Below, piece after piece: positions 6,063 to 59,400 of a DNA stretch of 64,000 bases (positions are counted from its first letter, which is position 1; each line of letters starts with the position of its first letter). Source of the stretch: a virus; IMG/VR virus record IMGVR_UViG_3300039106_000244, positions 1 through 64,000 of that record. One strand, written 5' to 3'. A program made the position numbers and the translations under genes. The notes beneath the pieces are model-generated. The model was not told where the DNA came from. It saw only the letters and a program-made list of their open reading frames with translations, and made no database searches.

Positions 6063-6094
6063 AAATAAAAGCGTCTTAATTGGCGCTTTTATTT
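6063..6094. terminator. bidirectional intrinsic terminator
   Basis: A perfect 11-bp stem, AAATAAAAGCG (6063-6073) with CGCTTTTATTT (6084-6094), and a 10-nt loop. It is T-rich on the 3' side in both orientations. It lies between the convergent MoxR gene and the GIY-YIG gene, whose stop codon falls in the loop. Confidence 0.88.
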
Positions 6095-6765
6095 TGGCTA
6101 TTATTCCATATAGTAAATGAATGTATTGCCATTTCTTTACGGTCGAATATACGACATATAACTTTTGGTTTGGCTATTCCTAAACCCTGACCTGCATGTG
6201 CGGCTTTATTATTTGCTCTATGTGTATCTGATTGTGCTTTACCTTTATTCCAAGCAATCTGTTCGCCTACTTTACCTTTGTTATGTGCAACCTGCACTCC
6301 TTTCTTACCTTTATTCCAAGGAGCAGTTCCTTTCTTAGATTCGCTAATTCTTCGTTTATGTTCGTCTGATTTAACTCTGCCTTTGTGCGCAATCGAGCGT
6401 TTCATTTTTGCTTCATCTGACTGTGGGCCAAGTTTCTTACCTTTAAATATACATGGTCTGTTTAAGCCAGTAAACTTGCCATCACCATTGTGTTGATTGT
6501 AGCTTAAAGGGTCGTTTTTAGCGTCTACAAGCGTTAGTAATGCGGTCTCTAATGCTAACATATCAACAGCGTGGCCAATGCACAGCACAGTTCGGGACCA
6601 ATTGGTTTGGTTGGATTCAATCAAAGGTTTGACTATGCGACTACTGCAAATATAACCATCTGCGGGGTTACAGCCGAGCTTAGTGCGTGAGCCAATATAC
6701 CAACGTCCGGTTGATAATTCTGTCCACTTATAAACATAAGCATAGGTAGGTGAGGTTAAATACAT
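6076..6765 (-). CDS. GIY-YIG homing endonuclease with NUMOD3-like repeats (copy B)
   Basis: About 229 residues. The N-terminal GIY-YIG nuclease core is visible as YVYKWTELSTGRWYIGSRT. The middle and C-terminal part is a string of Lys/Gly-rich repeats (SDEAKMKRSIAHKGR, SDEHKRRISESKKGTAPWNK, AWNKGKAQSDTH) typical of NUMOD3 DNA-binding modules in Seg/I-TevI-like enzymes. It is inserted against the direction of the MoxR-VWA unit, as expected for a free-standing homing gene. An in-frame ATG at 6774 is only 2 nt from the AGGA box; the ATG at 6765 aligns with the start of the second copy (TCAGCAATG against TCAGCATG), so it is preferred. Confidence 0.88.
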   Translation of the reverse strand: MYLTSPTYAYVYKWTELSTGRWYIGSRTKLGCNPADGYICSSRIVKPLIESNQTNWSRTVLCIGHAVDMLALETALLTLVDAKNDPLSYNQHNGDGKFTGLNRPCIFKGKKLGPQSDEAKMKRSIAHKGRVKSDEHKRRISESKKGTAPWNKGKKGVQVAHNKGKVGEQIAWNKGKAQSDTHRANNKAAHAGQGLGIAKPKVICRIFDRKEMAIHSFTIWNNSQNKSAN

Positions 6766-6833
6766 TGCTGACATAGTCCTTTATGTTAGAGTAGTCGGAT
6801 AGTGAGATATCGTGGACTACACATCTATTTATC
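6766..6833 (-). promoter_or_regulatory. GATAAATA box and paired-hairpin leader of GIY-YIG gene B
   Basis: Read on the minus strand: GATAAATA (6833-6826), 5 nt, then a 30-nt hairpin (6820-6791) with a 6-bp outer stem GTAGTC/GACTAC, CAC on the 5' side only, an inner 4-bp stem GATA/TATC with a 6-nt loop, and one unpaired C. TCTAAC, AGGA and the start codon follow. The same order and spacings occur at 38252-38319 with compensated base-pair changes. GATAAATA may be a late-type promoter box. Confidence 0.65.
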
Positions 6834-6843
6834 ATTTCTCCAA

Positions 6844-6872
6844 TTGACATCCCCGAACTTCTATGTTATAAT
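6844..6872 (+). promoter_or_regulatory. sigma70-type promoter (TTGACA-17-TATAAT)
   Basis: TTGACA at 6844-6849 and TATAAT at 6867-6872. It drives the 101-residue gene at 6899. Confidence 0.88.
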
Positions 6873-6898
6873 ATGCTTTACAATAATATGGTATCGAT

Positions 6899-9878: not shown

Positions 9879-11369
9879 GTGATTAATAAAAAAATTCTTT
9901 GTTTAGGAAATAGCTCCGAAGATACCGACCTCAGAGCTAAACAAATTGCGTACGAGCAAAATTTGTCTTATCACGGACTATTAACCGAATTTAGAGATAC
10001 AGTTGCAGGATGTTATCAAACCAGTGTGTATGATATGGCATATGGCGAGTTGATTGAATTAGCTAATAGTATAGATGAATTAATAATTTTAGATCAGGCC
10101 AAAGAAACGTATTTAGATGAACATGCGTTTTATCAAACTATAAGTTTAGGTAAACAATTAAAGTCTATATGCAATGTTATATTTTTAGATACGTCATTTA
10201 ATGATACAATTGAGGACGAGTTAAAAACAAATAAAAGTATATGCATATTACCGTTTATACAGTCAGTTACTATAAATGGCAATTTACATACTTGCTGTAG
10301 ATCTGATAATCCTTTATCAAAATTTGATCCGTTAATTAAATATTCTGATGATAGTAATCGCAATTTAATTAAGCAGAAAATGATAGCAGGTGAAAATTTA
10401 GATCACTATTGTAAAATATGTTATGATCTCGAAGATAAAGAAATTGTAAGTCCGCGAATTACACAAACAATCGAATGGGCAAATAGATTAAACATAAAAA
10501 ATATCAATGAATTAAGTCAACTAACTGGTCCAATATATTATGATATACAAGCAGGTAACAAGTGTAATCTAATGTGTAGAATGTGCAATTCCGATTATAG
10601 TAGTCTAATTGCAAAAGAAAATCAGAAACTAAAAATTGTTAATGATACCGATTATCAATACACTGGTTTTGATATTATTGATATTGAGAAAATAGAAAAA
10701 TTATATGTTGCAGGTGGTGAGCCGACAATTATGCCGGAACTGCATAAATTTTTAGAAGAATGTATAGCAAAGAAAAAAACAAATTTTGAAATACAACTTA
10801 ATACAAATGCAGTATCATTGAGTACTAAATTTAAATCTCTTATAAAACATTTTAGTAATTTTAATTTTGAAATTAGCGTCGACGGATATGACTTGGTTAA
10901 TCAATATATTCGGTGGCCTACTAAGTGGAATAAATTAATTAATAATATTGATTATTTGCATAACGCAGGATATAAAATATCATTTAATTCTGTTGTTTCA
11001 ATATATAATATTGCTAGTTTACATTCAACTATTAATTTTTTAAGCAATCGTTATAAGAATTTGCCAATACATTTAACTGAAGTAGATTTTCAAGATAATA
11101 TATTATCACCGTATGTATTTCCAAATGCTACACTTGTTATTGTTGAGTTAGATAAAATTAAAAAATTAGATGCATATAAAAATGATCGTGTATTAAAAAG
11201 TAAGATAGATGAATACTTAGATTATTTTACAAATAGTCATAAGGTTGATTTAATAACGCTAGCGGCATTTTTTAAGTACAATGATAAATTAGATGTAGCA
11301 AGAGATATACAGCTGGTAGATTATATACCAGAATTAGAACAATGTCGGTTAATAAAAGGAGTTAAATAA
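9879..11369 (+). CDS. radical SAM protein with N-terminal SPASM/twitch-like Cys motif
   Basis: 496 residues, GTG start with GGAG 4 nt upstream. Order of parts: residues 1-118 unrecognised; 119-185 an auxiliary-cluster-like Cys pattern (Cys122, Cys139-Cys140, Cys178, Cys181); radical SAM core with Cys229, Cys233, Cys236 (NKCNLMCRMC); GGEP at about 285. In textbook SPASM/twitch enzymes the auxiliary cluster lies after the core; here it precedes it, as in four other genes at 33-40 kb. It is more AT-rich than the small genes around it, which suggests separate acquisition. The substrate is unknown; expressed with a chain of small plus-strand genes. Its stop overlaps the next start (TAATG). Confidence 0.87.
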   Translation: MINKKILCLGNSSEDTDLRAKQIAYEQNLSYHGLLTEFRDTVAGCYQTSVYDMAYGELIELANSIDELIILDQAKETYLDEHAFYQTISLGKQLKSICNVIFLDTSFNDTIEDELKTNKSICILPFIQSVTINGNLHTCCRSDNPLSKFDPLIKYSDDSNRNLIKQKMIAGENLDHYCKICYDLEDKEIVSPRITQTIEWANRLNIKNINELSQLTGPIYYDIQAGNKCNLMCRMCNSDYSSLIAKENQKLKIVNDTDYQYTGFDIIDIEKIEKLYVAGGEPTIMPELHKFLEECIAKKKTNFEIQLNTNAVSLSTKFKSLIKHFSNFNFEISVDGYDLVNQYIRWPTKWNKLINNIDYLHNAGYKISFNSVVSIYNIASLHSTINFLSNRYKNLPIHLTEVDFQDNILSPYVFPNATLVIVELDKIKKLDAYKNDRVLKSKIDEYLDYFTNSHKVDLITLAAFFKYNDKLDVARDIQLVDYIPELEQCRLIKGVK

Positions 11370-28022: not shown

Positions 28023-28892
28023 TATACTGTTAACTAATTGTGTTGCTGTTAATTTATCATAATGAAACCCATCTCTTGCAAAATCAAGTTGGCGTGGCAT
28101 TGGGATAGCTAAATTATTTGTTAATAATGTAGATACCTTATCTCTATGATATAGATAATTATAATAATGGTCATATAGATTATCGTTTTGTAGTTCTTGT
28201 TTTATTTGCTTATCTAACTGTTCTAATTCTACAGTAGAATTAGGAAATAAGTTAGGCCAATCTGCGCCTTTAAAGAAATTCCATTTTTCCTGTAATATTA
28301 TAAGTGGACAAAAAATAGAATAGTCATCTGGAATAAATGAATGTATTACATTGTGATTATTAACTAATGATACATTCTTATTAAAATTTGTAAAATCTGC
28401 ATCTATATCAAATAATGCATTAATAGATTCCGAATTTGATAACACTCTACTTTCATCAGTTTGATAGGTAGCCGAAAGCGCACGTTCGCGGCGATGTAGG
28501 AAACTCCAGTGTATTATTAGTTGTTTAGGATTTATTATTTCTAATACGCGAGCAGCTTTTCTCGCTATCCAATCATTACTTGCACCATCCATACTAATAT
28601 TAATACATCTAGAATTGATATTAGTTTGAAGTATATTTGCCCAAGTATGATTCAACGGACTACCGATACCAACAGTAAAACTATCACCAAAACACCAGAC
28701 ACATTCTTTAAGTTCCTCTATAGTGGTTGGCCATTCATCGTCACGAAAGCCGCGAGAATTATAACTGTATTCAACTGTATAAGGATATTGCTTATAATGA
28801 TTTCTATCCCTACAAAGTTTATAGGAATCCATGCCAGAATTATTCCATATTTTATTTTGCCGTGTTGGTAATATAAAATCAGGTAGTATCAA
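27999..28892 (-). CDS. SGNH/GDSL hydrolase (copy 1)
   Basis: 297 residues. Block I CFGDSFTVGIG near 68-78 (nucleophile Ser), an Asn-containing DGASNDW segment near 108, and block V RDGFHYD near 280 (Asp and His of the triad, D-x-x-H). SGNH hydrolases remove or move acyl esters on glycans and lipids. No signal peptide, so it probably acts on intracellular precursors. The start overlaps the carbamoyltransferase gene by 4 bases. Confidence 0.85.
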   Translation of the reverse strand: MILPDFILPTRQNKIWNNSGMDSYKLCRDRNHYKQYPYTVEYSYNSRGFRDDEWPTTIEELKECVWCFGDSFTVGIGSPLNHTWANILQTNINSRCINISMDGASNDWIARKAARVLEIINPKQLIIHWSFLHRRERALSATYQTDESRVLSNSESINALFDIDADFTNFNKNVSLVNNHNVIHSFIPDDYSIFCPLIILQEKWNFFKGADWPNLFPNSTVELEQLDKQIKQELQNDNLYDHYYNYLYHRDKVSTLLTNNLAIPMPRQLDFARDGFHYDKLTATQLVNSILQLNRFS

Positions 28893-30391
28893 CTTAGGAC
28901 CTTGACTCCATATAAATTTTGAAAACGATCTGCATCATTACGATCGTTAACCATTGGCTCGCCACGTATATTTAAACTTGTGTTAAGTAACATCGGACAC
29001 CCGGTCCATGTATACCATAAGCACAATAGTTCACGTATGCCACTTCCATCACGTGGAACAGTTTGCACACGACTTGTACCATCTACATGTATTATAGCAG
29101 GAAATTCGTTGGGGCGTAAGCACTTTGCAGTCGTTTGCATATATCTACTTGATTCAAATCCTTTGGGCATTTCGAAATATTCATTTGCAAACTCTTCTAG
29201 TATTACAGGAGCAAACGGTCTAAACTTTTGTCTACGTTTAATTAAGTTTACAGCATCTTTAATGTCTGCGCCACGTGGATCAGCAAGTAAACTTCTATTA
29301 CCTAATGCTCTCGGACCAAACTCTGCACGACCATTGGCAACACCAACAATCTTATTTGTCATTAGCTCGGAGACAATATCCGCCACAGGATATATCCCAG
29401 GAATATTATGGCCAAGAAAAGCATCCACCCAATTAAGTTTGCCCCCGTGCGCAAGCGCCGCTGCTCCAAGGCTGCTACCAGCATCGCCAGGGTTAGGCAT
29501 AATCCAAATATTATCAAAGTCAAAAAACTCTCCTAAATGTCTATTTGCACTGCAATTAAGCGCAACACCGCCAGCATATACTAAATTACTACTTGGTGCT
29601 AACTTCTTTGCTTTGTACATTATATTGTATATTAATTGTTCTGTCAATGATTGAGCTGCATTAGCAATTTCAAAGTCATTCCAGCGAGCACGTATATCAC
29701 TCTCTGGCAGACCAATATGTAAGTTGTGCTTTAATGTTAAATCAAACTCATGCTCTATTAGCCAAGACGACAACTCATTGTATAGATGTCGTGTATTTTT
29801 TTGAGCCCACCCTGCCATGCCCATTAAAATGTATTCTTCGTCTAATGGTTTAAGTCCGACTTCTTTTGTAAATGCACTGTACATTAAGCCGATACTGTGT
29901 GGATATAGTTGACGCCATACTCTTGTGTATTGTGCTTTGCCATTTACATATTTTGCAGACCATATGCTTATAGTATCCCACTCGCCGATTGCATCAATTA
30001 CAACAACCGTCGCATCATCAAACGGACTTGTTTGAAAACCTGCAGCCGCATGTGATAGATGATGATTATATGTTTTGACTGGGAGATGATGTATCGGAGA
30101 TTCTAGCACCATCTGTTTAAGCATGCCACGCACTGTCCATGGAGTTTTTAGTTCGCTATACTGACCAGAGTAAAGTTGACGGGTCTTTTTAACTAATGGT
30201 CTTTCATAATATGCAATTTGATTAGGTGCACCGTAGGTTAATGCATCTGCTATCAACGCATTGTTTAAGTTTGAATCGTGTTTAATTTTGCTATAACGCT
30301 CAGCATGACCTGCAAAGACAATATCATCGCCTTTGATTAATGTAATTGCTGCGTCATGAAACCCAGCACTAATTCCGAGAATATTTTTCAT
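28889..30391 (-). CDS. NodU/CmcH-family carbamoyltransferase
   Basis: 500 residues. N-terminal ASKHA-like domain: LGISAGFHDAAITLI at 4-18, the metal His motif YNHHLSHAAAGF near 108-119, VVVIDAIGEWDT. C-terminal domain: YAGGVALNCSANR, GDAGSSLGAAAL, AEFGPRALGNRSLLADPR and FRPFAPVILEE. These are the full signatures of O-carbamoyltransferases such as NodU and TobZ, which use carbamoyl phosphate and ATP to carbamoylate a sugar or antibiotic hydroxyl. In this cluster it most likely decorates a sugar made or transferred by neighbours. The stop of the next upstream gene abuts the start. Confidence 0.95.
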   Translation of the reverse strand: MKNILGISAGFHDAAITLIKGDDIVFAGHAERYSKIKHDSNLNNALIADALTYGAPNQIAYYERPLVKKTRQLYSGQYSELKTPWTVRGMLKQMVLESPIHHLPVKTYNHHLSHAAAGFQTSPFDDATVVVIDAIGEWDTISIWSAKYVNGKAQYTRVWRQLYPHSIGLMYSAFTKEVGLKPLDEEYILMGMAGWAQKNTRHLYNELSSWLIEHEFDLTLKHNLHIGLPESDIRARWNDFEIANAAQSLTEQLIYNIMYKAKKLAPSSNLVYAGGVALNCSANRHLGEFFDFDNIWIMPNPGDAGSSLGAAALAHGGKLNWVDAFLGHNIPGIYPVADIVSELMTNKIVGVANGRAEFGPRALGNRSLLADPRGADIKDAVNLIKRRQKFRPFAPVILEEFANEYFEMPKGFESSRYMQTTAKCLRPNEFPAIIHVDGTSRVQTVPRDGSGIRELLCLWYTWTGCPMLLNTSLNIRGEPMVNDRNDADRFQNLYGVKVLS

Positions 30392-33018: not shown

Positions 33019-34294
33019 ATACTTCCGGTCTCTCTTTTAAGATGTCTGCTAATGTATACGTATCACCACGAATACTTTCTAATTGTAGCACACGAGCCTT
33101 ACCTTTTGCAAGACTTACTTTATATGTATCTGGCCATTGCTCATCAAATGTCGGTCGTGATTTTAACTGTACAAGTATATCTTGCATAGCACCAGAAGTT
33201 TGTGGTATTAGTTCATCTAACCATGGATGTAATAACTTGCGCGGCAGTGCCAAGGGACTAAGAATAATATCAGGGCTAAAGCTAAAAACAACTTTAGCCA
33301 ATATATCTACTTTTTCTTCGTTAGCAAGCTGGGTAATGTTAATAACTTCAAACATTCCCGGCATTGTGAGTGTGAAGTCGATTCGCATTTGTCTGCGGTT
33401 AGTTGCAATTTTAACTCCTTCACGGAAGTTTTCAAGCCATTGACTATAATTAAGTCCTGTTCTAATATATTCGCCAATGCGACCAGTTCCGTCGAGACTG
33501 GCACAGATTTGCCAGTCACGTAACCTAGATAAAATATCGCTGAAGAGATTGATGCCACGATAGTCGATGCGGCTAAGATTAGTATTGTACCTTGCATAAG
33601 CATTCTTTCCATCTCCCAAATCAATTATGCGTTTCATATAACGCCAATGCTGTTCGTACATTAAGGGCTCACCGCCAACCCAATATACTTCCTCAACTTG
33701 ATGATTCTCGACTGCTTGAGCAAACTCCTGTTCAATTTGACTATCTTGAAATTTTGATATTTCGCTTCTCACTTCGGGCTTCATCCAATTATTCTTTGGA
33801 TTGTGCCAATTGATCATATTATGTTGTTTTTGTTCAGTTTCCCAAGCACTTGACAACATATCGCCACACATGCGACATTTAAAGTTACATAAGTTACTAA
33901 ATCTATAATCCCAACTTATAGGACGCATAGTTGTATAACCTGTTTCGTCTGTTGTTTCTATTACTTGCAAATATTTATTTTCGAACATTTGATCAAAATA
34001 ACTACGGTAAACTGATGTATTCAACAGCTTATCATTACATACTTCGCACTCTGGGAGGGTTTCCCCAGCAATCATGCGACGACGGACCGACCGCATGTGC
34101 TCGCTATTCCAGTGTTCATCCAGAGTTATTGGAATGTATTTGCCCGTTCCGGCTTTTGTATCAATATACTGCTGAAAGTTTTGCGCAGGTTCGCGACTAG
34201 CACAGCACATACGTCTTTCTGTGACAGGGCTTAAATAGGTATGGAGAAATGGCGCAAAACAGAAATTCTCTGGCGGCTTTTTAGGAATTGACAT
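32993..34294 (-). CDS. radical SAM protein, permuted SPASM/twitch-core order
   Basis: 433 residues. The auxiliary-cluster-like motif comes first: Cys12 (NFCFAPF), Cys30-Cys31, then HWNSEHMRSVRRRMIAGETL and Cys83-x-x-Cys86. The radical SAM core follows with Cys136, Cys140, Cys143 (NLCNFKCRMCG) and the SAM-binding GGEP at 207-210. Core enzymes of this class generate a 5'-deoxyadenosyl radical; SPASM/twitch members usually modify peptides or sugars with help from extra Fe-S clusters. No SPASM motif follows the core. The start overlaps the 851-residue fusion gene by 14 bases. Confidence 0.9.
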   Translation of the reverse strand: MSIPKKPPENFCFAPFLHTYLSPVTERRMCCASREPAQNFQQYIDTKAGTGKYIPITLDEHWNSEHMRSVRRRMIAGETLPECEVCNDKLLNTSVYRSYFDQMFENKYLQVIETTDETGYTTMRPISWDYRFSNLCNFKCRMCGDMLSSAWETEQKQHNMINWHNPKNNWMKPEVRSEISKFQDSQIEQEFAQAVENHQVEEVYWVGGEPLMYEQHWRYMKRIIDLGDGKNAYARYNTNLSRIDYRGINLFSDILSRLRDWQICASLDGTGRIGEYIRTGLNYSQWLENFREGVKIATNRRQMRIDFTLTMPGMFEVINITQLANEEKVDILAKVVFSFSPDIILSPLALPRKLLHPWLDELIPQTSGAMQDILVQLKSRPTFDEQWPDTYKVSLAKGKARVLQLESIRGDTYTLADILKERPEVYEWYNNIA

Positions 34295-36836
34295 AACCCA
34301 TTGCTAGTGCAATTTCCTTATGTGTTGTTAGCATACTTTGTTCGCGATATGCATCTGTCTGTTGCATTTTTTGTAAGAATTCTGTACCATCACTTCCTGC
34401 GCCGTTTTCAATGAACTGAATTATTTTATCAATTTCAACACGATGCTTAACATTAAATGGGTAATCATTCAATCTATCTATAACTAATTTTTGTGCGGCT
34501 GGTGTCATACGATTAATACACATAACATTTGGGTCATGCAACATATTAAAATGCACCATGTCAAATTGTTGAGTATTAACCCAGTCACATAGCTCAGGTA
34601 GATAGTAAACATTTTGTATGTTTATAGTCATGCATACCTGTGTTTGAATTAGATTAGTTTTCATTGCATTAAATTTTATAACATTGGTTTTTACTTCGTC
34701 CCACACAGCACCATAACGTTCATATTCAAATCGTGCTTCGATATTATCTATGCTAACTGCAATTTCAATGTTTCTAAATTTACCCCATAAACTTACTTCT
34801 TCGTCTGAGGGATATACAGTACCATTAGTATTATAATGTATATCTATACGTTTACTATATCCATGTTCTACTGCATAACGTAATAGTTTAAAGTGTTCTT
34901 CAATTAAGAATGGTTCGCCACCTGTAAATTCAAAGTACTTGATGTTTGGTAATAGTTCTTTTAAATTTTCCCAGAACACTTCACTTTCTCTTGGCCAAGT
35001 TCCTTCTTGTAAGAACATGTATGCACTATGTTGTTTGCGGTCATATCCTTGTACGTCTTTGTATTTTCTAGCTTCGTAATCAATTTCTTCTTTGGCCCAT
35101 TTACTGCTAGACCACGAGCCACATATACGACATTTAAGATTACAGATGTTGCCTAGCTTAAGATCAATAAACCAAAGTTGGTCAGGTTTATCATTCTTCC
35201 AATCAACAATAGGATAAAACTCTTTAAGTCTAATTCTGCTATTAATACGCTTACTAACTATACCGGCATCTTCTTCCTTCCAGCAACGATTACATGTAGA
35301 TGGCTTTTCACCCCGACGGAATTGTTGTCGTAAGTCTTGCATATATTCACTGTTGTAAATTTCTGCCAATGAACTTTCTTTTAGCTTATACGGTGTACCA
35401 TCACTTTTAGTAATCTCATCTGTTGCTAAACAACATGGGCGAGCTGTGCCAACCGGACTTGCTTCAATACTAACCCACGGTAACATACAAATATTATCGT
35501 GTGTCTTGTTAATACCTAAATGATCACGTAACTCTTTATATTCCGGAAACACTTCTTCAAATGTTTCTTTTCTCATTGAATCAGTTTGATCATTTATCTT
35601 AAAGAATTCTTTTAATAAGTGACTTTTGTCGTCTTGATACATAAATGTAATAATAGCTTTATAACCCGAGATAGCTCGTTGCAATTGATCTTGTGGTGCA
35701 AGCCATGCGATATGTTCTTCGACACGTTGTTTAATTCTATCTTTAAATTGAATTGGTAATACATCAATACGATCGCGTTCCGGACTCTGTAGAATGTTTA
35801 CGTTCCAATCCATTGCTTTAATTAAGCCAAGTTCGACCCATTCTTTATGGAATTCTGTTAAATGCCATGCATTAAGTATACTAACTGTACTGCTAACATA
35901 AAAGTCAACATTAGGACAAATTTCAATCATTTTGCGGCGATTTTCTACTGTTTCTGCCCAGTCTTGACCCTTGCGGATATATTCTCCACGAAGATAAGAA
36001 TCATCTAAACTTGCGCCTACACTTACTACATCAAATAGTTTCCAGTATTCAAACACCATCTTATCTTTAAGACGAATGTGACTAAAGTTTGTATTATATA
36101 CTAATCTAACATGGAACATTTTACGTTTAACTAATTCTTCTAGTATACGATAATGTTCTTCCATGATAAGTGGCTCACCACCAGCAAAGTAAATTTGTTC
36201 TAAGTAAGGGATATGTTCTTGCATCTGCTCCCACATATCATCTTTCTCTTTACCAGCAAACATAATTTGTGGGTGATTTAACTTACCAAATAGTTTTGTT
36301 TCTTCGGCAAACCAACTACTACTAAACAAACTACCACATGTTCTGCAGCTGAAGTTACATAGATTACTAAAGCGTATGTCATAGTAGCGTAATTTAAAAT
36401 CATCTAAACTACCATCTGGATTAGTTTTGTCTGTTAGTGCAATATGATGTCCGAAGTTTTTATTTTGGCTATTGCGCATTGAAAAGAAGCCGTTGTCTTC
36501 TTGTTCATAACAACGTGTACATTCTTTAGAAGGCTTATCTTCTAACATATTGATACGCATTTGTTTGTACGGAGTACCATTCCATACTTCTGCCATTGTA
36601 TTTTCTTTAAGATTACCTATAGGCAAATGCATCTCACCTAAACAACAAGGATATGCTCTGCCATCTGGGATACCATGCATGTGTGTCCACGGTATCATAC
36701 AGAAATATTTACTTTCTATTAATTTATATGTATGGTCTTCTGTTAAATCATCTTCATGTATGTACACTGGCTTACGTGTATTGTAATTGTGATTTTTATG
36801 ATGTACTGTTAATTTCTTGCTTGGCTCATCGCTCAT
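34281..36836 (-). CDS. tandem double radical SAM fusion, each half with N-terminal SPASM/twitch motif
   Basis: 851 residues containing two complete copies of the cluster's module. First half: Cys46 (YFCMIPW), Cys64-Cys65, WNGTPYKQMR, Cys106-x-x-Cys109, then core Cys160, Cys164, Cys167 (NLCNFSCRTCG) and GGEP near 215. Second half from about 450: ICMLPW, a PCC pair, IYNSEYMQDLRQQ, CNRC, then core NICNLKCRICG near 563 and GGEP near 640. All cysteines of both halves are present, so both could be active. The fusion suggests that two related steps are done on one substrate or that the units pair. ATGA overlap upstream. Confidence 0.9.
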   Translation of the reverse strand: MSDEPSKKLTVHHKNHNYNTRKPVYIHEDDLTEDHTYKLIESKYFCMIPWTHMHGIPDGRAYPCCLGEMHLPIGNLKENTMAEVWNGTPYKQMRINMLEDKPSKECTRCYEQEDNGFFSMRNSQNKNFGHHIALTDKTNPDGSLDDFKLRYYDIRFSNLCNFSCRTCGSLFSSSWFAEETKLFGKLNHPQIMFAGKEKDDMWEQMQEHIPYLEQIYFAGGEPLIMEEHYRILEELVKRKMFHVRLVYNTNFSHIRLKDKMVFEYWKLFDVVSVGASLDDSYLRGEYIRKGQDWAETVENRRKMIEICPNVDFYVSSTVSILNAWHLTEFHKEWVELGLIKAMDWNVNILQSPERDRIDVLPIQFKDRIKQRVEEHIAWLAPQDQLQRAISGYKAIITFMYQDDKSHLLKEFFKINDQTDSMRKETFEEVFPEYKELRDHLGINKTHDNICMLPWVSIEASPVGTARPCCLATDEITKSDGTPYKLKESSLAEIYNSEYMQDLRQQFRRGEKPSTCNRCWKEEDAGIVSKRINSRIRLKEFYPIVDWKNDKPDQLWFIDLKLGNICNLKCRICGSWSSSKWAKEEIDYEARKYKDVQGYDRKQHSAYMFLQEGTWPRESEVFWENLKELLPNIKYFEFTGGEPFLIEEHFKLLRYAVEHGYSKRIDIHYNTNGTVYPSDEEVSLWGKFRNIEIAVSIDNIEARFEYERYGAVWDEVKTNVIKFNAMKTNLIQTQVCMTINIQNVYYLPELCDWVNTQQFDMVHFNMLHDPNVMCINRMTPAAQKLVIDRLNDYPFNVKHRVEIDKIIQFIENGAGSDGTEFLQKMQQTDAYREQSMLTTHKEIALAMGYVNS

Positions 36837-38209
36837 AGTGTGTCGTACCAGTCTGCTAATTGTGTAAATGTATATTTAAAGTCTTTGCCACGACGTTGGT
36901 CGTATTGTTGATAAAAGTTCTTAAAGTCACGCTGTAGTACCTCGCGTGCCAATGCTTCGCTATGCGGAGTATCCACTGTTTCTAAGTATGTAATTAATCG
37001 TCGTAGTTGATTATATTCATATTCATGCATAAAATCTACAGCAACATCGCCGAAGATACGCAATTCATCTGCGTATTGTTTACGCATTTCTAACGGTAAT
37101 ATCAATGGGCTTTGGAAACTAGGAAAACGTAAGATGTTAAGGCTAAAGTTAATTGCATCCTCGCCGTACTTCTTTTTAAGATTAACAATCATCCATAAGA
37201 ATTCTGTTAAGCTCGATAAGCACAATGCATTAATGGTACACATAACATGAAGCCCACGTAATCGTTTACTATCTAATAACCACATAACATTTTGACACCA
37301 CTGATCCCAATCTAGTCCATCACGAATATATATTGCATGTCTACCGATGCTTTCGTTGCTAGTGTATAAATCTAATTCAGTACCTTCTGTGCTATCTAAT
37401 AATCGTTCTAATACTTCGCGGTCAACTCCTAGATTACTATTAATAGCTAAACGTGTTTTACTAGTGCCTTTGTTTTCTTTAAACCAATCAAACAGGCGCC
37501 ATGTGTAACCCGACATCAATGGCTCGCCGCCGGTAATGCGTAATTCTTTTAATGTTTTGTGTAAGTCTGTTTCCCACCATTTGAAGAACGCTTCCACATA
37601 TGGATTAACTTCATTGAGTTTGAACAGTTGACTACTATCATGAACGTGAGTAAAATGATTCCTACCGTCTGATACCAAACCTGTGTATGCACCGCTTGTT
37701 TTAATGTCTCTGACCCAGGCGCTACTAAAAGCAGGGTTGCAGTAACTACAAGCAAATTGGCAAGTGCGGTCAAAAGAAATTTCCAATGTTTGCAAATTAA
37801 CGTCTTCGTTTGCAGGTAAATTGTATGCATAATCTAAATCCTCATCATTATAAATTACTGTTTTGTATACACGGTCACTAATCGGTACAGGAACATCTAC
37901 ACCATTGTACTTAGAACCCTTGTACATGTCTTCTATCTTCCAGCAGTAATCACACCCTGCAGGTCGTTCACCCTCTTGCATTTGCTTACGTTCTAATTTC
38001 TTTTGTGGCGTGTTATGTAATGCACTTGGGTTTGTTTTAATTGCTTCTAAGTCAATTGCATGAGGTAATGGATGATGACAACTTGTAGTCTGACCTGAGC
38101 CCAACCATATAGTTGCATTGTACCATTTAGCCGCACAGAAACTAGCTGACTTAATGTCAATTACTCTACGCTTATATTGTATATCTGATTCGTTATTAAT
38201 TCTCGGCAT
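36833..38209 (-). CDS. radical SAM protein, permuted SPASM/twitch-core order
   Basis: 458 residues. N-terminal Cys pattern Cys25 (SFCAAKWYNATIWL), Cys44 (single Cys followed by HH rather than CC), Cys86-x-x-Cys89 after ERKQMQEGERPAGC; radical SAM core Cys150, Cys154, Cys157 (CQFACSYCNPAFSSAW); GGEP near 227. Closely similar in order to the gene at 38916 (AKW, SC-x-HP, ALHNT, RP-A-x-C-x-Y-C), so these two are a duplicate pair now separated by a homing endonuclease gene. No ribosome site; a TATAAT box lies 6 bp before ATG. Confidence 0.9.
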   Translation of the reverse strand: MPRINNESDIQYKRRVIDIKSASFCAAKWYNATIWLGSGQTTSCHHPLPHAIDLEAIKTNPSALHNTPQKKLERKQMQEGERPAGCDYCWKIEDMYKGSKYNGVDVPVPISDRVYKTVIYNDEDLDYAYNLPANEDVNLQTLEISFDRTCQFACSYCNPAFSSAWVRDIKTSGAYTGLVSDGRNHFTHVHDSSQLFKLNEVNPYVEAFFKWWETDLHKTLKELRITGGEPLMSGYTWRLFDWFKENKGTSKTRLAINSNLGVDREVLERLLDSTEGTELDLYTSNESIGRHAIYIRDGLDWDQWCQNVMWLLDSKRLRGLHVMCTINALCLSSLTEFLWMIVNLKKKYGEDAINFSLNILRFPSFQSPLILPLEMRKQYADELRIFGDVAVDFMHEYEYNQLRRLITYLETVDTPHSEALAREVLQRDFKNFYQQYDQRRGKDFKYTFTQLADWYDTL

Positions 38210-38215
38210 TTAGTA

Positions 38216-38244
38216 ATTATAGCAGGAACAATGAAGATTGTATA
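38216..38244 (-). promoter_or_regulatory. possible promoter with leaderless start
   Basis: TATAAT (38221-38216) is 6 bp before the radical SAM start at 38209. At 17 bp spacing the -35 would be TATACA, a 4/6 match. The -10 context, TATAATTACTAAATG, closely resembles the one at 26739. Confidence 0.45.
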
Positions 38245-38251
38245 TCTTTTT

Positions 38252-38319
38252 GATAAATAAAAATGCAGTTCACGGAAGTGGAATTCCTAACTGCTCTAAC
38301 GTTCAGGAGAACAATCAGC
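38252..38319 (+). promoter_or_regulatory. GATAAATA box and paired-hairpin leader of GIY-YIG gene A
   Basis: GATAAATA (38252-38259), 5 nt, then a 30-nt hairpin (38265-38294): outer stem GCAGTT/AACTGC, CAC on the 5' side only, inner stem GGAA/TTCC with a 6-nt loop, one unpaired T. TCTAAC, AGGAGA (38305-38310) and the start codon follow. The architecture and every spacing up to TCTAAC match the leader at 6766-6833. Confidence 0.65.
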
Positions 38320-38913
38320 ATGAATATTTATCAATCAACAGAAGTGCGACCATACATTTATATCTGCACACATAAAACAACTGGAAAATTTTACATCGGA
38401 TATAGAGAAGCAAATAAAATTGCATCACATCTAGATTTTCCTTTATATAAGACTTCCTCTAAAATTGTCAGACCAGATTTTGATAATTACACCTGGATTA
38501 TATTTGCTGAATTCTTAAATGGCGAATCCGCATATCAAATTGAGCAACAACTAATTTTCGAAAACTGGAGTAACCCTTTATTAATAAATCAACATCAGAG
38601 AGTACACGCTTCGACTCCTCTCAGAGGAAGTAGGAAAAATGCAGTATTATCTGACGCTACTAAAAAGAAAATTTCCGACGCAAATAAAGGTAAGAAGAGG
38701 TCAACAGAATTTAAAGAAAGAATGGCTATTTTACACCAAGGCAAAAAACATTCACTAGAATCAATTACAAAAATGAAAATGCGAACAATGTCAGACTCAG
38801 CAAAAGCTCATTTATCGAGTATTAATAAAGGAAAAATAATGTCAGCTGAAACTAAAGAGAAACTTCGTCAAGCTAATCTAGGCAAAAAAAGAGGAAAGTA
38901 TAAAAAAGACTGA
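38320..38913 (+). CDS. GIY-YIG homing endonuclease with NUMOD3-like repeats (copy A)
   Basis: 197 residues from ATG 38320, 9 nt after AGGAGA. An in-frame ATG at 38263 would make the conserved leader hairpin coding and is rejected. GIY-YIG core: YIYICTHKTTGKFYIGYRE at about 12-30. C-terminal NUMOD3-like repeats: LSDATKKKISDANKGKKRS, HSLESITKMKMRTMSDSAKA, MSAETKEKLRQANLGKKRG. It lies on the opposite strand between two paralogous radical SAM genes, with 2 bp between its stop and the stop of the convergent gene. Free-standing homing genes of this type cut phage DNA lacking them and spread by repair. Confidence 0.88.
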   Translation: MNIYQSTEVRPYIYICTHKTTGKFYIGYREANKIASHLDFPLYKTSSKIVRPDFDNYTWIIFAEFLNGESAYQIEQQLIFENWSNPLLINQHQRVHASTPLRGSRKNAVLSDATKKKISDANKGKKRSTEFKERMAILHQGKKHSLESITKMKMRTMSDSAKAHLSSINKGKIMSAETKEKLRQANLGKKRGKYKKD

Positions 38914-38915
38914 CT

Positions 38916-40304
38916 TTAGTTCGAAGCGTGATAGTTGCACTCCTGCCAGAAGTCTGTCATCTGTGGGAACGTTTTCAAAAAGTTTAAGCCTCTGCGTTTA
39001 TCGTATTCATTGAAGAACTTATAAAAGTCTGCTCTTTGTAGTGTAACATATTCCTTAGGTAGTTCACAACCTTGTTTCATCCAATCTACATTACGTTCCA
39101 TACGTTGTATTTCGTAATCCTTAAAGCCTTCAAAGTTATCAGCAGTTTCATCTGCTTGATTTGCTCGCATAAACGTAACAACATCTTCTAATATGCGAAC
39201 ATAACTTGCTGGAAGTATTTGTAAACTTTGATAGGTTGGGCTACGTAATAGTGGCGTATCGAACCACACACGTTGATAAGTTGTGCTGTATTTGTTACGC
39301 ATCTCTAATATCTGTGTCAATAAAAGTTTTAGTCCAAGTACGTTTAAATTGTTCATTGTAATAATAAACGTTAGGCTATTGCGGTATGGCACTACTGCTA
39401 GGAAATCGTTAGTATAGCGCATGACTCTGTCCCATTGTAGACCATCGCGTATATATTCTGCATGTCTAGGAAGTCCGCTATCTAAGCTAACATACTGCAT
39501 AAAGTGTTCAATGCGTTCACCAGTGCATAGTTGTTTTACTTTGTCTAGGTACTTGTCAAACAGTTCGGGCTCAACACTAAAGTTACTAGTAACGTCTACG
39601 TGCAGATCACTCTTGGGTAAGGCAAGTATGTAATCAAATACACGATGTGTATTCTTATCCATAAGCGGTTCGCCACCAGTCATTCTAAAGTGTTTTAGCT
39701 TAGGGTACAGCTCGGGCCACCAACGCCAAAATGCTTCAACATACGGGTTAGATTCACGTACTGGGATTGGCTTGCGTCGACCTTGAAAGTGTTCAGGCGC
39801 ATTGTGTGGTACGCTTGTTGGATACGCACCCCAACGATCAATGTCTTTGCCCCACTCCGTTGAATACTGTGGACTGCAATATGAACAAGCTAAGTTACAG
39901 CCGTGACTAAAGTTTACTTCGACATAACTTGGCACAACGTCTTGGTCCCATGGTGCGTTTACTATTTCTTCATAGTGTTCGGCCGCCCACGGTTCACCAC
40001 TGCGATAGTGTCTATCGCTTAGTTGTTTGTTATCTTCTGCACTCCAACAGTAACTACATTCTGCTGGGCGTATTTGCTCTAGCATAAGTTTACGTTGCTG
40101 TTTCTTGTAATCAGTGTTATGTAGCGCACCTGGATTGAATAACAATGGAGCACTATCAATCTCATGTAAGGGCGGATGATAACAACTATTTGTTAGTCCA
40201 GTTGGCAGATGTAAACTTACTTGTTGCCACTTAGCCAAGCAGAGTGCAGGACCTAATTTATCCTTCATGTCTTCTGCAGCTGTCAGGAAATCACTTTTGC
40301 TCAT
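38916..40304 (-). CDS. radical SAM protein, permuted SPASM/twitch-core order
   Basis: 462 residues. N-terminal Cys22 (ALCLAKWQQVSLHL), Cys41 (SCYHPP), Cys83-x-x-Cys86 (RPAECSYCW); radical SAM core Cys136, Cys140, Cys143 (HGCNLACSYC); GGEP near 208. Paralogue of the gene at 36833; the two share the departure from a CC pair to C-Y/H-H. The start overlaps the TEK-motif gene upstream by 14 bases. The substrate is unknown. Confidence 0.9.
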   Translation of the reverse strand: MSKSDFLTAAEDMKDKLGPALCLAKWQQVSLHLPTGLTNSCYHPPLHEIDSAPLLFNPGALHNTDYKKQQRKLMLEQIRPAECSYCWSAEDNKQLSDRHYRSGEPWAAEHYEEIVNAPWDQDVVPSYVEVNFSHGCNLACSYCSPQYSTEWGKDIDRWGAYPTSVPHNAPEHFQGRRKPIPVRESNPYVEAFWRWWPELYPKLKHFRMTGGEPLMDKNTHRVFDYILALPKSDLHVDVTSNFSVEPELFDKYLDKVKQLCTGERIEHFMQYVSLDSGLPRHAEYIRDGLQWDRVMRYTNDFLAVVPYRNSLTFIITMNNLNVLGLKLLLTQILEMRNKYSTTYQRVWFDTPLLRSPTYQSLQILPASYVRILEDVVTFMRANQADETADNFEGFKDYEIQRMERNVDWMKQGCELPKEYVTLQRADFYKFFNEYDKRRGLNFLKTFPQMTDFWQECNYHASN

Positions 40305-53446: not shown

Positions 53447-56400
53447 CTATGGTGCGATTAATGTTGCTGTACTTGCTTTTAAGAATGTAACCGGTGCAGT
53501 TGTTGCTCCATTAAATCCTGTCCCATCTGTTGCTACTCCGCTACCTAAATTATACCATACGTTGGTTGTATGCAATGATATATTAGCTGCAATAGTTACG
53601 TTACCGTTGCTATCAACAAATGGGTTGCCAGCATCATTTCTACCAACTGGCACAATACTTAATGGATACACATTACCTGTGCTTGTTCCATTTATTATTA
53701 TCGCTGAACTAAGTGATACATTGCTAGTTATTGTAGTTGGATAGATTGCAACATTAGATCCATTAATTGCAATATTACCACCAGCTTTACCAGTAGTTAA
53801 TGTTGTAATTCCATAGTAACTTAATGAAATGTTGCTAACATTAGCACCGCTTGTTAATACTGTTAAATTAGCACCAGTCGATGATTGTGTTATATAATCA
53901 CCAGCAGTTACAGTAACATTTCCACTTAGAGCTACATCATTATTTTGATATGTTAGACTATTTGTATTATTGCGTATAACCAACAACACTCTTGCAACTG
54001 AATCAATACCAGCTACTGTCATTGACGCACCAGATACAGATTGTGTTATTACATCACCAACATTGGCACTTACGTTACCAGTTAATGAAAGATAGTACGA
54101 ACGAGTTGTTGTTACCGTATATGGTGTAATTGTGCTAAGTGAAATATTAGAAACTACATTTGGCACAAGTTGATCAATGCTACCATCAGTTATAAGTGTT
54201 CCAGCAGTGTAAAGTGCTGGTGTACCTGTACCTTGTGTGCCTCGACGTATTTGCCCAAGTGTATTTGTTAATAGATTACGTGTGTAATAAGTTATACGTT
54301 CACCATTAATAAATATCACGCCAGGGATAGCAATTTGTCCTAATCCTACTGTGTCGATAAATGGTGCAGTTAACTTACTTGCATCTGCCACAACAATTGT
54401 AGTGTCGGTTATTGCTAAATTAGAAGCAAGTGTAGTCGAATGTGCAGATGCTATACGTAAATAACTTTCTTCACGCATCATATTGCTAAACATTCTATAG
54501 CCAATTACATCGACATTACCATTGATTTTAGTATACACTTGCATATCTAATGTATCAAATACAATACCCGGTACCAATTCTTCAGGAGCATGGCTCGAGT
54601 ATGTATCGACATACGCACCGCCAGCCACATTAATATCTTCTGCTCGTGTGCCTAATGCTAAATCAGTGTAATCACTGCGTATAATCGAATCAATAGTATA
54701 ATCATCGAGCATCGGTAATCCATCGGCATCGTATTGAATATTATCAAATACACCTTCGTCAAATGGTGTTGGCCCACTAAAGCCAGGTGCTTGGTCAAAA
54801 CCAGCACCTTGTACTTTTACACCCGGATATCCAATACCTCGTAATAATTGGGTTAAATCACGAGCTGGCATTGATGCACCTGGCTCATAATATCCAGTAA
54901 TACGATCATTTGCAGTAGTAAAATCAGATGCATTGTAAATAGTATAATCGGTTGTATGTATGAACGTAGATCCAGATACTATATTTGCAGTTACGATATA
55001 TGCGTTACGAGTTGCTGTTTCTAGCGAGCCGGTATGTGTTACTATATCACCAATTGTATAGGCAGTATTTGCAGACCATTCCTGCACCGAACTTGTATAA
55101 TTAACTCTATCAAATTTTAATGTTGTATTAATACTGCGAACTTGATTATTAGCAAGCATAGCATACGCACGTGCAGGAGTTGTACAACTACCATTAATAA
55201 GCACAGTTGGAGTTACATAATAACCACTACCACCAGCGATGATATCAATTCTAATTACAGTGCCCAGGTCAAAATCAATAATTGCACGTGCAGTTGCACC
55301 GGACGCAGCAAGTCCACCATCGACTATAGTAACTATTGGTTCGGCAGTATAACCACTGCCGCTATACTCCACTACGATACTCTCAACTTTGTAATTTCTA
55401 TTAGCATACCATTGACTATATGTATCAGTTTGCCATAATGCCTCATCTTTAATTATATTTTCGCCACTCGGACTACGGAATATCTGTGTGTCAGTATCAT
55501 AATATGCCGGTACATCAAAATCAGATATGTTACCAGCATACTCATCGGTGCTATTGTAGTTAATTGAATATTCGCGTATTTTAGTCGAATATGGTTTAAC
55601 TTCTGAGATATAATCTTGATAATAAGTTTGATTATCTTTAATATAATTAGGAGTTTGTGCAAGTGTTCGTAGGGTATGAGCTACACTAATAAAACTAGTT
55701 TTAAATATCCAATCAACATATTTTTGTTCATTGAATATGTAATTAACTACAACAAAAAATAATTTATTAAATTCAGAATCTAATTCTCCAACAAAAATAT
55801 CATCTCGTAATGCTGTAATTATATACCGAACTTCGATTGTTGGAGTTGTATTATTAATAAGAGTACCGTTTGATGTTTTTAATTGCACAGTTCCATTTTG
55901 AATGCCTACGACATCAAAGTGATTTTGACTATTAAGTACAAGAAGATTCCATCCGTGGTCCCCACCGCGGCTAACTCTAACTAATACATCGTCACCGACT
56001 TTAACCGGTAATTTCAATGCATCGGTTAATGTATCAACTACATATTCAAGTTGAGTTTCAACTCCGTACCCAGGTGCGTACCAATCAACATAATCCCAAT
56101 ATAAATCTGTTTTATAACTTTGTATTTTAACTACTTCCCATGTATTGTTAATAGACAATTCATAAACTACCCAAAGATTATTACGTGTAGTATCTTGTTC
56201 TACTAATATTTTATAACCAGGGTCTAGTGTAGTTATATCAATCAATTCTAATTCTAATTCTGTTGCAATTTTTAAATCATATTCACCTAATTTAATATTA
56301 GGTTGCGGTTCAGACGCAGTAAGATTAGTTAAATCACAATTTCGTGCAATTGGTGTAGTTATTAATACACTATTAGCATAGTCTATTAGATTAGACCATG

Positions 56401-59400
56401 CTGTGAATCTATCAATAAACATTGTTTGGCGCGGTCTTACTCCGAGTCCAAATTTATCTGCTGTGCTCAATGCCGGATCGGGTACAGTTGCACCTAATAT
56501 ATCAATACCCGCTAAACTATCAATCAATTTATTAATAATTTTTGGAGATATTGCGCTATCTGCATTACCTTTTTGTATTAATTCATATTCACTATGTATA
56601 ATATTAGTATTTTTAATTGTATTATAATCAATATGTAATATAGTATTTTGTGATGATAGATAATCAACTATGTTGTATACAATAAGTGCATTATTTTGTA
56701 TAATTGCCGCGTATGGAACTCCTTGATTTTTAGGATTTTCAATTATATCTTGTACCGCAAGAATTGGTATATGTCTAAATTCATTATTTGGGTCAACTGT
56801 TGTTTTATTTTTAACCCAATAAAAATATTTAATACCAATAATATTAGTGATTGGATCAACGAAAATAAGTTCGACGTATGCAGAATCATCTTCGTATTTT
56901 GGTTGGCCTTCGCCGCCATTTGCAACATACATACTAGGTAGGTATGCACTTTCTACCCATTCAAGCACTTCGACAATTGAACCCGGAAATAATTTGCCCC
57001 AGTTGATACTACGATACGTTAAGGTATCTTGTTCGTAATCTATATAACTAAGTAAACTCAAATTCCACCATACTTGGCCAACTTGATTACTGTTCCAGAA
57101 TATATTATCGTTTAAATTAACTGCATTATTTGTTCCGCGGTTGTATACCGCCGGATCGTACCCAGTTTTATATGATATTTCTTGTTCTGCTAATCCAGAT
57201 ATCTTACCCTTTGCAGGGTCAATAAATTCCAGTGTTTTTAAAATAGTATTTGATAAATTACTATATAGATACAATCTGCTAATAGATTCAATGTCTACTG
57301 TAGGTTGTTGATAACGTAATAAACTCCACCCACGTTTGCCAGTTGGATTACTAAACACGTATATGCTTCCGCCATCTGTGATTGTTGTATCATCGCTTGG
57401 TGCACTCACTACAATGTGTCCGCCAATTACATCAATTGCAGCACCAAAGCCATCGCCGGTATTTAAGTCAGTCGGATCAAGTTGTTGACAAAATGCATAG
57501 CGGCCTGGATGTTCAACTGCATTACGTGGATCATCGTATAATTCATAAGTGTATACGCTTCCACTAGCATTAACACTATCAAAGAATGCTGTAGAAATAT
57601 TATCAAATGTTGTTGCTGTTCCATCATCAAATGTAGTATAATGATTTGTTGTTCCGCGATCACTACTAATCACCAACATATATGCATTACGGGCCAAGAT
57701 AACTTTAGTACCAAAATATTCATTGTTACTATGGTACGGGTTAACAATAATCTGCATGAATGCAAATATAGCCATGCCAGCGTCTTCGTACACGGTGCCA
57801 CTTGCTGATAGGATACGTAAACGATTTTTAGCTACAGTTTTATCACTATTCAATCTTAAATAACCTGCTTCATTAACTGCGGTGATACCTAATAGATTAG
57901 CGTCATTGATATCTTGTACTAAACTATCTAAACTTGTACCGGTTACAGTAATTTGGAAGTTATCTAACCGAATTGTATCGCCTGGAGTAAACGTTGGATT
58001 ATGTATATAACCTGTATTAGTACCGTAAAGTGTTCCTCTATTATGGAATTTCCAAACTGCACCGGTGTTGTAAATTGTACCTGCATTGTAATACGGAGCA
58101 CCGATATAGAATGCGCAATTGTTTGAACATATTGTTAACGCCGAACCAAATCGTGCCCCTGCTTGAATTGCACTTAAACTACCATCTAGCGTATCAATGC
58201 CAATTAATCTTTCTAATAGAGTAAATTTATTAGTTTCAATTTTTACAACTTTACCTACCCCAAGTGGCACAAATAAAGTTATTTCATTTGTTCCAGTTTT
58301 TGTATAATTAAATATTTCAATATCATCAACTGTTACTTTATGTACATCGGCTATTATTTCTTGCGTAGTATATACTGTACCATTTGTGCTATTAAATGCT
58401 TCGATTACACGATCATATACATATACTGCACCAGCCTGTGCAAGTGTCACTCCAGTTGACCCAATTACGCCATCTCCTGGTGCACCAACTCCGAGTTGTG
58501 CTCCGTTCAAACTTGCATCAATGCAATATCCAAACTCACTGCCTGCAGGTCCAGAAATAGTTTCAACTAATGTGTAATACGGACCTTGTGAAATTGTAAA
58601 TGTGCCATTTACATTACCCGATATAAATGTTATTGTTTGTCCACTTATAGTATAATCGATTCTTGGAATATATGTACGTGTTGCACTTGTTACTAATACC
58701 GAATTAGCATCAGTTGAGCTAACTATTGTATCACGAGTAAACGGTACTGTTATTGTAGATACGGAACCAGATGTAGTAACATTTCCGGTAGCTTCAGTTA
58801 CAAAGCGTTGTAAGCCATATACATAAACTTTTGGAGTTGCTTCATATGGTGCACTAACGTATAACCAGTGTCCTAACTCATCAAATGCGAATCCTGTACC
58901 AAATTTGCCACCGGTTGCACTTACATTACCGGCAATAACCTGTCCACGAACCCAATTTTCAGTGCTAGCAGTTTCTTTATATATGTACATTAATCCGACA
59001 TTAGCAGCACCGCCTAACCCAGAACTTGTTGGTGCGCTAATTGCTAGTGTTTCTCTTGTGTCGACTCCATCATTGATAAACGAATCAACTGCGGTATCAA
59101 TATGTGAACCAAATGTAAATGTGTTTGCACCATCTGGTATTATCGAAGTTGTTTCAACATATACATTAGATGCATTTTTTTCAAATATATTTACTGCACC
59201 TGTATTAGTTGAGACAGATAAATTTGCGTATAATGTAGTACCAGTAAAAATAGTTTGTTCAGCGTTATCAATCATTTTTAATGATCGGCCAAAACCTATG
59301 TTTGCAGAGTATTCGCTAGTATTTTTTACAAGGCGTTGGCCCATAGACCACGGATGTGTTTTTTCATACACTTTCCATGTACCACTTGGCTGTGTACCAA

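Follow-up and report, generated by a model that had tools for sequence, protein, structure and literature searches.

A two-hairpin element folding on the antisense strand at the start of unrelated phage homing endonuclease genes

Selfish genes for free-standing homing endonucleases are widespread in T4-like phages, where they are known to be controlled gene by gene. In the window studied here, i.e., the whole stretch of 64,000 nucleotides that was analysed, from a viral record of 117,015 bases (IMG/VR IMGVR_UViG_3300039106_000244) that has a major capsid gene of T4 type (Gp23, E 2e-100), two homing endonuclease genes (HEGs) are each preceded by a similar hairpin. This raises the question of what the shared leader is, on which of the two strands it folds, and what it may do for the gene behind it.

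Read in the direction of the HEG, copy B (6766-6833, minus strand) is GATAAATA-GATGT-(GTAGTC CAC GATA TCTCAC TATC C GACTAC)-TCTAAC-ATAA-AGGA, and copy A (38252-38319, plus strand) is GATAAATA-AAAAT-(GCAGTT CAC GGAA GTGGAA TTCC T AACTGC)-TCTAAC-GTTC-AGGA. The original prediction of a common hairpin layout with identical spacings is borne out base for base, and the four base pairs by which the stems were said to differ, two in each stem, are all still Watson-Crick. The coordinates of both copies and of the surrounding features are given in Table 1. The likely start of HEG B is the ATG at 6765-6763, against a mechanical ORF start at 6774, and relatives start with MYL; for HEG A a start at 38320 is likely, since the ATG of the ORF beginning at 38263 precedes the predicted transcript start. 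A third NUMOD3 match, below the cut-off and without the element, lies outside the window (genome 82358-82444, minus strand). The window also contains several radical-SAM genes and a Nol-like carbamoyltransferase gene (9879-11369, 34281-36836, 36833-38209, 38916-40304, 28889-30391), as well as a single ORF of 3515 aa (53447-63994, minus strand), found here in a phage record of 117 kb.

Table 1. Coordinates of the two copies of the element and of associated features in the window
Feature	Position	Strand	Remarks
Two-hairpin element, copy B	6767..6820	+ (antisense to HEG)	helix I followed by hairpin II; covariance model R1, E 5.9e-10
Late-promoter-like GATAAATA, sense, HEG B	6826..6833	-	first hairpin base 5 nt downstream
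Antisense promoter-like TTAAATA (TAAATA core), copy B	6756..6762	+	4 nt before element, within first HEG codons; poorer match than that of copy A
AGGA ribosome site, copy B	6777..6780	-	in loop of small sense hairpin; complement within loop of antisense helix I
HEG B, GIY-YIG-like/NUMOD3 homing endonuclease	6076..6765	-	NUMOD3 E 1e-7
Sigma70-like TTGACA-17-TATAAT promoter, next gene, copy B	6844..6872 (in 6834-6898)	+	not in empty allele
Two-hairpin element, copy A	38265..38319	- (antisense to HEG)	covariance model R1, E 2.2e-10
Late-promoter-like GATAAATA, sense, HEG A	38252..38259	+	
Antisense late-promoter-like GATAAATA, copy A	38325..38332	-	5 nt before element, within first HEG codons
AGGAG ribosome site, copy A	38305..38309	+	small sense hairpin GTTC-AGGA-GAAC
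HEG A, GIY-YIG-like/NUMOD3 homing endonuclease	38320..38913	+	NUMOD3 E 2e-7
Sigma70-like TGCTATAAT promoter, next gene, copy A	in 38210-38251	-	not in empty allele

The leader is not peculiar to this virus but recurs in many T4-like phages. The pattern ATAAATA-N11-CAC-N21-TCTAAC was found in at least 118 stretches of IMG/VR, with strongly differing stem sequences, and at least nine of the ten stem pairs were present in about 105 among the matches listed. An independent scan of IMG/VR for the downstream part (ATCAGCATG-NN-TATTTAT) yielded 129 distinct sites, and the hairpin recurs upstream of nearly all of them. Only 20 fit the first pattern exactly, which is explained by CGC being more frequent than CAC and by the use of TCTAAT besides TCTAAC. 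Overall, at least 186 distinct elements were parsed from IMG/VR. The original prediction had staked the element on the existence of further examples, and with many of them at hand the element stands. A search with the covariance model R1 found no copies beyond A and B in the 117-kb record, while 12-13 copies occur in each of three other records of 142-361 kb (G003, G004 and G013), where each element precedes a different HEG, an unusually heavy load of selfish genes. Two cultured phages have an element according to the same model, in each case just before a GIY-YIG gene: that of Variovorax phage V45v66, which infects Variovorax sp. SCN45, is clear (E 1.4e-11; PV558790.1:86005-86058, minus strand), and that of Pseudoalteromonas phage XG4 is divergent (E 4.7e-7). 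The model gave no significant match in S-SRM01, S-N03, RN05-S, pf16, ACG-2014f, B23, S-PM2, T4, Aeromonas phage 25 and ten more cultured phages, and only a non-significant one in Aeh1 (E 0.07).

Outside phages, a pattern search of 84,980 bacterial and archaeal genomes returned 38 matches and no convincing copy; one of the 38 was a marginal structural match without the conserved core and was taken as chance. Searches of phage records with the leaders by blastn gave chance-level matches only, and a match in Proteus phage 10 was rejected, as it falls within a coding gene. In the window, no Rfam 15 family reached its gathering score, the matches around copy A being weak, sub-threshold and at chance level, and no description of the element was found in the open-access literature, to which the survey was confined. 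The two-hairpin element thus appears to be an RNA family without an earlier description.

The genes behind the element are diverse. The 130 downstream proteins include matches to NUMOD3, GIY-YIG, HNH_3, HNH, HNH_5, SegE, the I-TevI DNA-binding domain and, in one case, a TnsA-like protein, and some of the nuclease genes are truncated or broken. The element is therefore not tied to GIY-YIG/NUMOD genes as had been proposed, since HNH genes are also preceded by it. Proteins without detectable similarity to each other follow 23 of the 30 element pairs that differ at five bases or fewer, as exemplified by an HNH gene and a GIY-YIG gene with leaders only two bases apart, and we conclude from these near-identical leaders before unrelated proteins that the leader is a module exchanged between nuclease genes. 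HEGs without the element also exist, and one record (G001) has more NUMOD3 matches than elements.

The hairpin first described is only part of a larger structure. The full element, of 55 nt, combines it with a second covarying stem around the ribosome site, formed between TCTAAY and RTCAGC with AGGA in the loop, in which GCT/AGC, AGT/ACT, GTC/GAC, GTTC/GAAC and ATA/TAT replace one another. The ribosome site, described as lying outside the hairpin, does lie outside the one reported; the hairpin that holds AGGA in its loop had been missed. Likewise absent from the original prediction were the conserved RTCAGC before the start codon, the TATTTA directly after it, and the strand. On the strand antisense to the HEG, the order is an unpaired G (G1), an 8-bp helix I that includes G-U pairs (CUGAU-GCU...AGC-RUUAG), a single A, and hairpin II, which is in copy B the complement of the hairpin originally reported and consists of 6 bp, an R-Y pair between two bulged Gs, a further stretch of about 4 bp, and a variable loop of about 6 nt. 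G1, the spacer A and the two bulged Gs are conserved, while stems and loops vary freely. The near-invariance of parts of TCTAA and CAGC is partly imposed by the search patterns and is not counted as evidence. A resemblance of the antisense CUGAUG to a hammerhead-like core was rejected by inspection, since CUGAU pairs with RUUAG.

Because wobble pairs are asymmetric between strands, they allow the conserved fold to be assigned to the antisense strand. When 42 gap-free elements were scored against the 19-pair structure (798 cells), standard pairs made up 99.9% on the antisense strand against 87.0% on the sense strand, where nearly all exceptions were A-C, i.e., G-U on the antisense strand. The same asymmetry is found for hairpin II, counted with a filter blind to strand, in which A-C and G-T are handled equally: on the sense strand, the 169 distinct hairpins contain 33 A-C against 4 G-T (p 1e-6), and their internal R-Y pair (CRC against Y) shows 50 A-C and 0 G-T. 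The R is fixed as A in the first pattern, but R and Y are both free in the second, which still gave no G-T. In a set thinned to 71 dissimilar hairpins, the A-C to G-T ratios were 23:1 and 25:0, respectively. In 48 distinct model-found elements, pairing holds for 98.8% of 904 antisense cells (104 G-U against 5 A-C), in an alignment that was fitted to the covariance model and thus leans towards it. Folding stability is greater for the antisense strand in 168 of 183 elements. Both the structure and its strand bias are thus well supported. It had been proposed that the hairpin is an RNA element at the 5' end of a late transcript; a selected structure at the late promoter of the HEG is retained from this, while the strand has to be corrected, the wobble asymmetry placing the fold antisense.

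The element is flanked by promoter-like cores that face each other. Given the T4-type capsid gene in the record, GATAAATA is readable as a late promoter of T4 type, of which NATAAATA is the cyanophage form (PMC2984593). Among 37 model-found elements, TAAATA lies 3-7 nt (mostly exactly 5) outside the left end in 35, and TATTTA lies 5-7 nt outside the right end in 36, so that both TAAATA cores point inward, each about 5 nt outside the element. TATTTA occurs in the first codons of 64 of 73 HEGs, compared with 148 of 1971 background ORFs (7.5%). Its distance to CAGC is 4-6 nt in 61 of the 64, while all three frames relative to the ATG are used; with its spacing fixed and its frame varying, we conclude that it is kept as nucleic acid and not for the protein. 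From its sequence, TATTTA is readable as a late-promoter core pointing in the opposite, antisense direction. In cases not biased by the search, the sense core is present in 92 of 98, and the antisense core is absent at the expected spacing in 11 of 53; in V45v66 the antisense TAAATA is displaced, and that of copy B is imperfect. In T4, about one helical turn separates the late TATA box from the transcript start downstream of it (PMC2988020); with such a distance, the predicted starts of both transcripts coincide with the two ends of the element, the late sense start falling on the first hairpin base, which is always a purine. Pairing of ATAAATA with TATTTAT as a closing RNA helix was considered and rejected, since the outer bases change independently of each other on the two sides, and the two motifs are better explained as promoters.

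The two HEGs are insertions relative to empty alleles. HEG A lies between two radical-SAM genes, and these overlap in relatives with an empty allele (L285 and others). At the site of copy B, some 50 bases, including a terminator, occupy the position of the HEG in a locus about 94% identical (L365). Beyond the element, both filled alleles have a promoter for the next gene that is lacking from the empty alleles; among 70 similar flanks, TATAAT is present in 28, and so is TTGAC. Relative to the neighbouring gene, about 113 HEGs with the element are opposed and 51 parallel, with an equal antisense bias in both groups; a host-gene leader (5' UTR) was thus rejected, as the strand bias persists when the neighbouring gene points the other way. 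The 153 nt after 142 HEG stop codons contained no enriched motif that would mark a transposon end or the second end of an HUH element, and the 3' ends are not conserved.

Based on the fold and on the facing promoter-like cores, we propose, with about even confidence, that convergent late promoters give overlapping transcripts and that a structured antisense RNA pairs with the HEG mRNA and limits its translation. From the two facing promoters, the HEG mRNA would be made together with a structured RNA that runs outward from the gene start, and their overlap over the element would cover the leader, the ribosome site and the start region of the mRNA. Since the antisense G-U pairs become A-C mismatches in the mRNA, the latter would be the less structured partner. 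We infer that this RNA is transcribed, anneals to the HEG mRNA and represses it, by which nuclease levels would be kept low late in infection. As seen from its sharing among nuclease families, the cassette is exchanged between unrelated endonuclease genes.

Against simple antisense pairing, which has no need of them, the conserved bulges and sequence, i.e., the two bulged Gs and the spacer A, suggest recognition by a protein or another RNA. The antisense-strand RNA could accordingly act in trans or bound to protein, with a phage protein (possibly the nuclease) or a shared factor recognising the fold, and with control of the mRNA being secondary. The conservation of G1, the spacer A and the bulged Gs beside freely varying stems and loops agrees with this, as does the number of copies per genome. 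A nuclease-specific partner is nevertheless improbable, because unrelated GIY-YIG and HNH proteins share the element, and the flank has no support as a guide: a guide RNA or an IscB/TnpB-like omega RNA scaffold was rejected, as the flanks of copies A and B are not found in the empty alleles. We regard an antisense RNA acting in trans or bound to protein as unlikely. To go further and take the antisense RNA as a functional partner common to unrelated homing endonucleases, bound by the nuclease or a phage factor or acting in trans across copies, which would make free-standing homing genes a common class of RNA-equipped mobile elements, is a long shot.

A structured 5' leader of the late HEG mRNA, acting in sense on mRNA stability or translation, would fit the predicted start on the first hairpin base, by which hairpin II would cap the 5' end of the mRNA, and hairpin II does fold on the sense strand too, next to a sense core that is present in nearly all unbiased cases. 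We consider it quite unlikely, since the exceptions on the sense strand are A-C mismatches rather than G-U (33:4 and 50:0), the helix around the ribosome site reaches only 3-4 bp there, and the conserved TATTTA within the coding region is left unexplained. Folded single-stranded DNA of the antisense strand, for instance during replication or recombination, would give a strand bias identical to that of RNA, as DNA also tolerates G-T pairs, and template switching (see below) indicates that the DNA folded at some point. It is, to a similar degree, an improbable account of the element, given the late-promoter cores on both sides at transcription-start spacing, the tight linkage to the ribosome site, and a mobile unit without a conserved second end. 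The inverted TAAATA...TATTTA could also be an operator for a dimeric repressor, with the hairpins as a side feature; the symmetry of the cores fits this, and I-TevI binds an operator overlapping its own late promoter and represses it (PMC2988022). However, unrelated nuclease families share the site and the strand-specific fold is not explained, which makes an operator very improbable.

The loops bear the mark of template switching at inverted repeats, a process known to homogenise arms and invert spacers (PMC8604942). Of 43 distinct 6-nt loops, 18 are also present as their reverse complement (expected 3.6, sd 2.2), while none occurs as reversed only or as complement only. Examples of inverted pairs (at loci such as L003, L110, L019 and L035) are TTGGCG/CGCCAA, TTGCAG/CTGCAA, CGGGAA/TTCCCG and TCTCAC/GTGAGA. 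As template switching also homogenises arms, part of the stem covariation is mutational, and the process probably adds to the covariation observed. The claim that covariation between two copies is strong evidence for selection was thus right in that the structure is selected, but the evidence is weaker than stated, since template switching can co-vary the arms. A purely mutational origin, with switching between quasi-palindrome arms keeping complementarity where structure is not selected, is hardly credible despite the inverted loops, and the strand bias already contradicts it as the only cause. A strand-symmetric process does not yield the ratios given above and would remove the CRC/Y asymmetry; this asymmetry is kept, as are the promoter spacings, and the retained bulges likewise do not follow from template switching.

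An antisense RNA limiting HEG translation, as proposed here, would have parallels among known systems. RNA-OUT of IS10 and CopA of R1 are short structured cis-antisense RNAs, with bulged stems and variable loops, that lie over the ribosome site of a gene whose expression must stay low. The present element differs from them in its pair of lytic-phage late promoters and in the one fold shared across nuclease families, and its repression is a predicted one. As in a cis-antisense regulator, the antisense strand is structured (99.9% pairing and the G-U asymmetry), for an RNA whose existence we predict. A promoter-like TAAATA core at fixed spacing, recognised by its sequence, lies on the antisense side and is a candidate for the opposite-strand promoter of such a regulator. 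In the cyanophage S-PM2, the antisense RNA CfrI lies over a homing endonuclease gene (Millard et al. 2010, via PMC2984593), which, as far as it is summarised there, is alike in being an antisense RNA over a HEG in a T4-like phage. It differs in being about 225 nt long and linking psbA to the HEG (PMC2984593), and S-PM2 has no element according to the model.

T4 homing genes are held down by several layers of control, including sense hairpins (PMC2988022). The leaders of I-TevI, I-TevII, I-TevIII, segB and mobE are similar to the present ones in that a late promoter, an RNA structure and a ribosome site are packed at the start of the HEG and expression is kept low in layers, but their hairpins are gene-specific and hide the ribosome site on read-through mRNA (PMC2988022), whereas here the conserved fold is antisense and a single module serves unrelated genes. 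A sequestering hairpin of the I-TevI type was not found in the element, where the ribosome site sits in a loop on the short sense stem and the extended helix pairs only antisense. The late promoter is not placed as in I-TevI either: its core lies 5 nt before the hairpin, so that the late mRNA would hold the whole hairpin. In Aeromonas phage 25, the GIY-YIG gene seg43(25) similarly has a stable hairpin that lies just upstream of its ribosome site and does not cover it (PMC2988022), but the model search found no copy of the element in that phage.

Antisense control of mobile genes is thus already known as a kind, while the RNA family described here appears to be new. It offers a clean case in which the asymmetry of wobble pairs corrects the strand assigned to a hairpin and tells selection apart from mutation by template switching. 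A single module, present among GIY-YIG, HNH and other nucleases in up to 13 copies per genome, appears to give these genes a common control from the antisense strand, and the restraint of selfish nuclease genes during their spread becomes directly testable.
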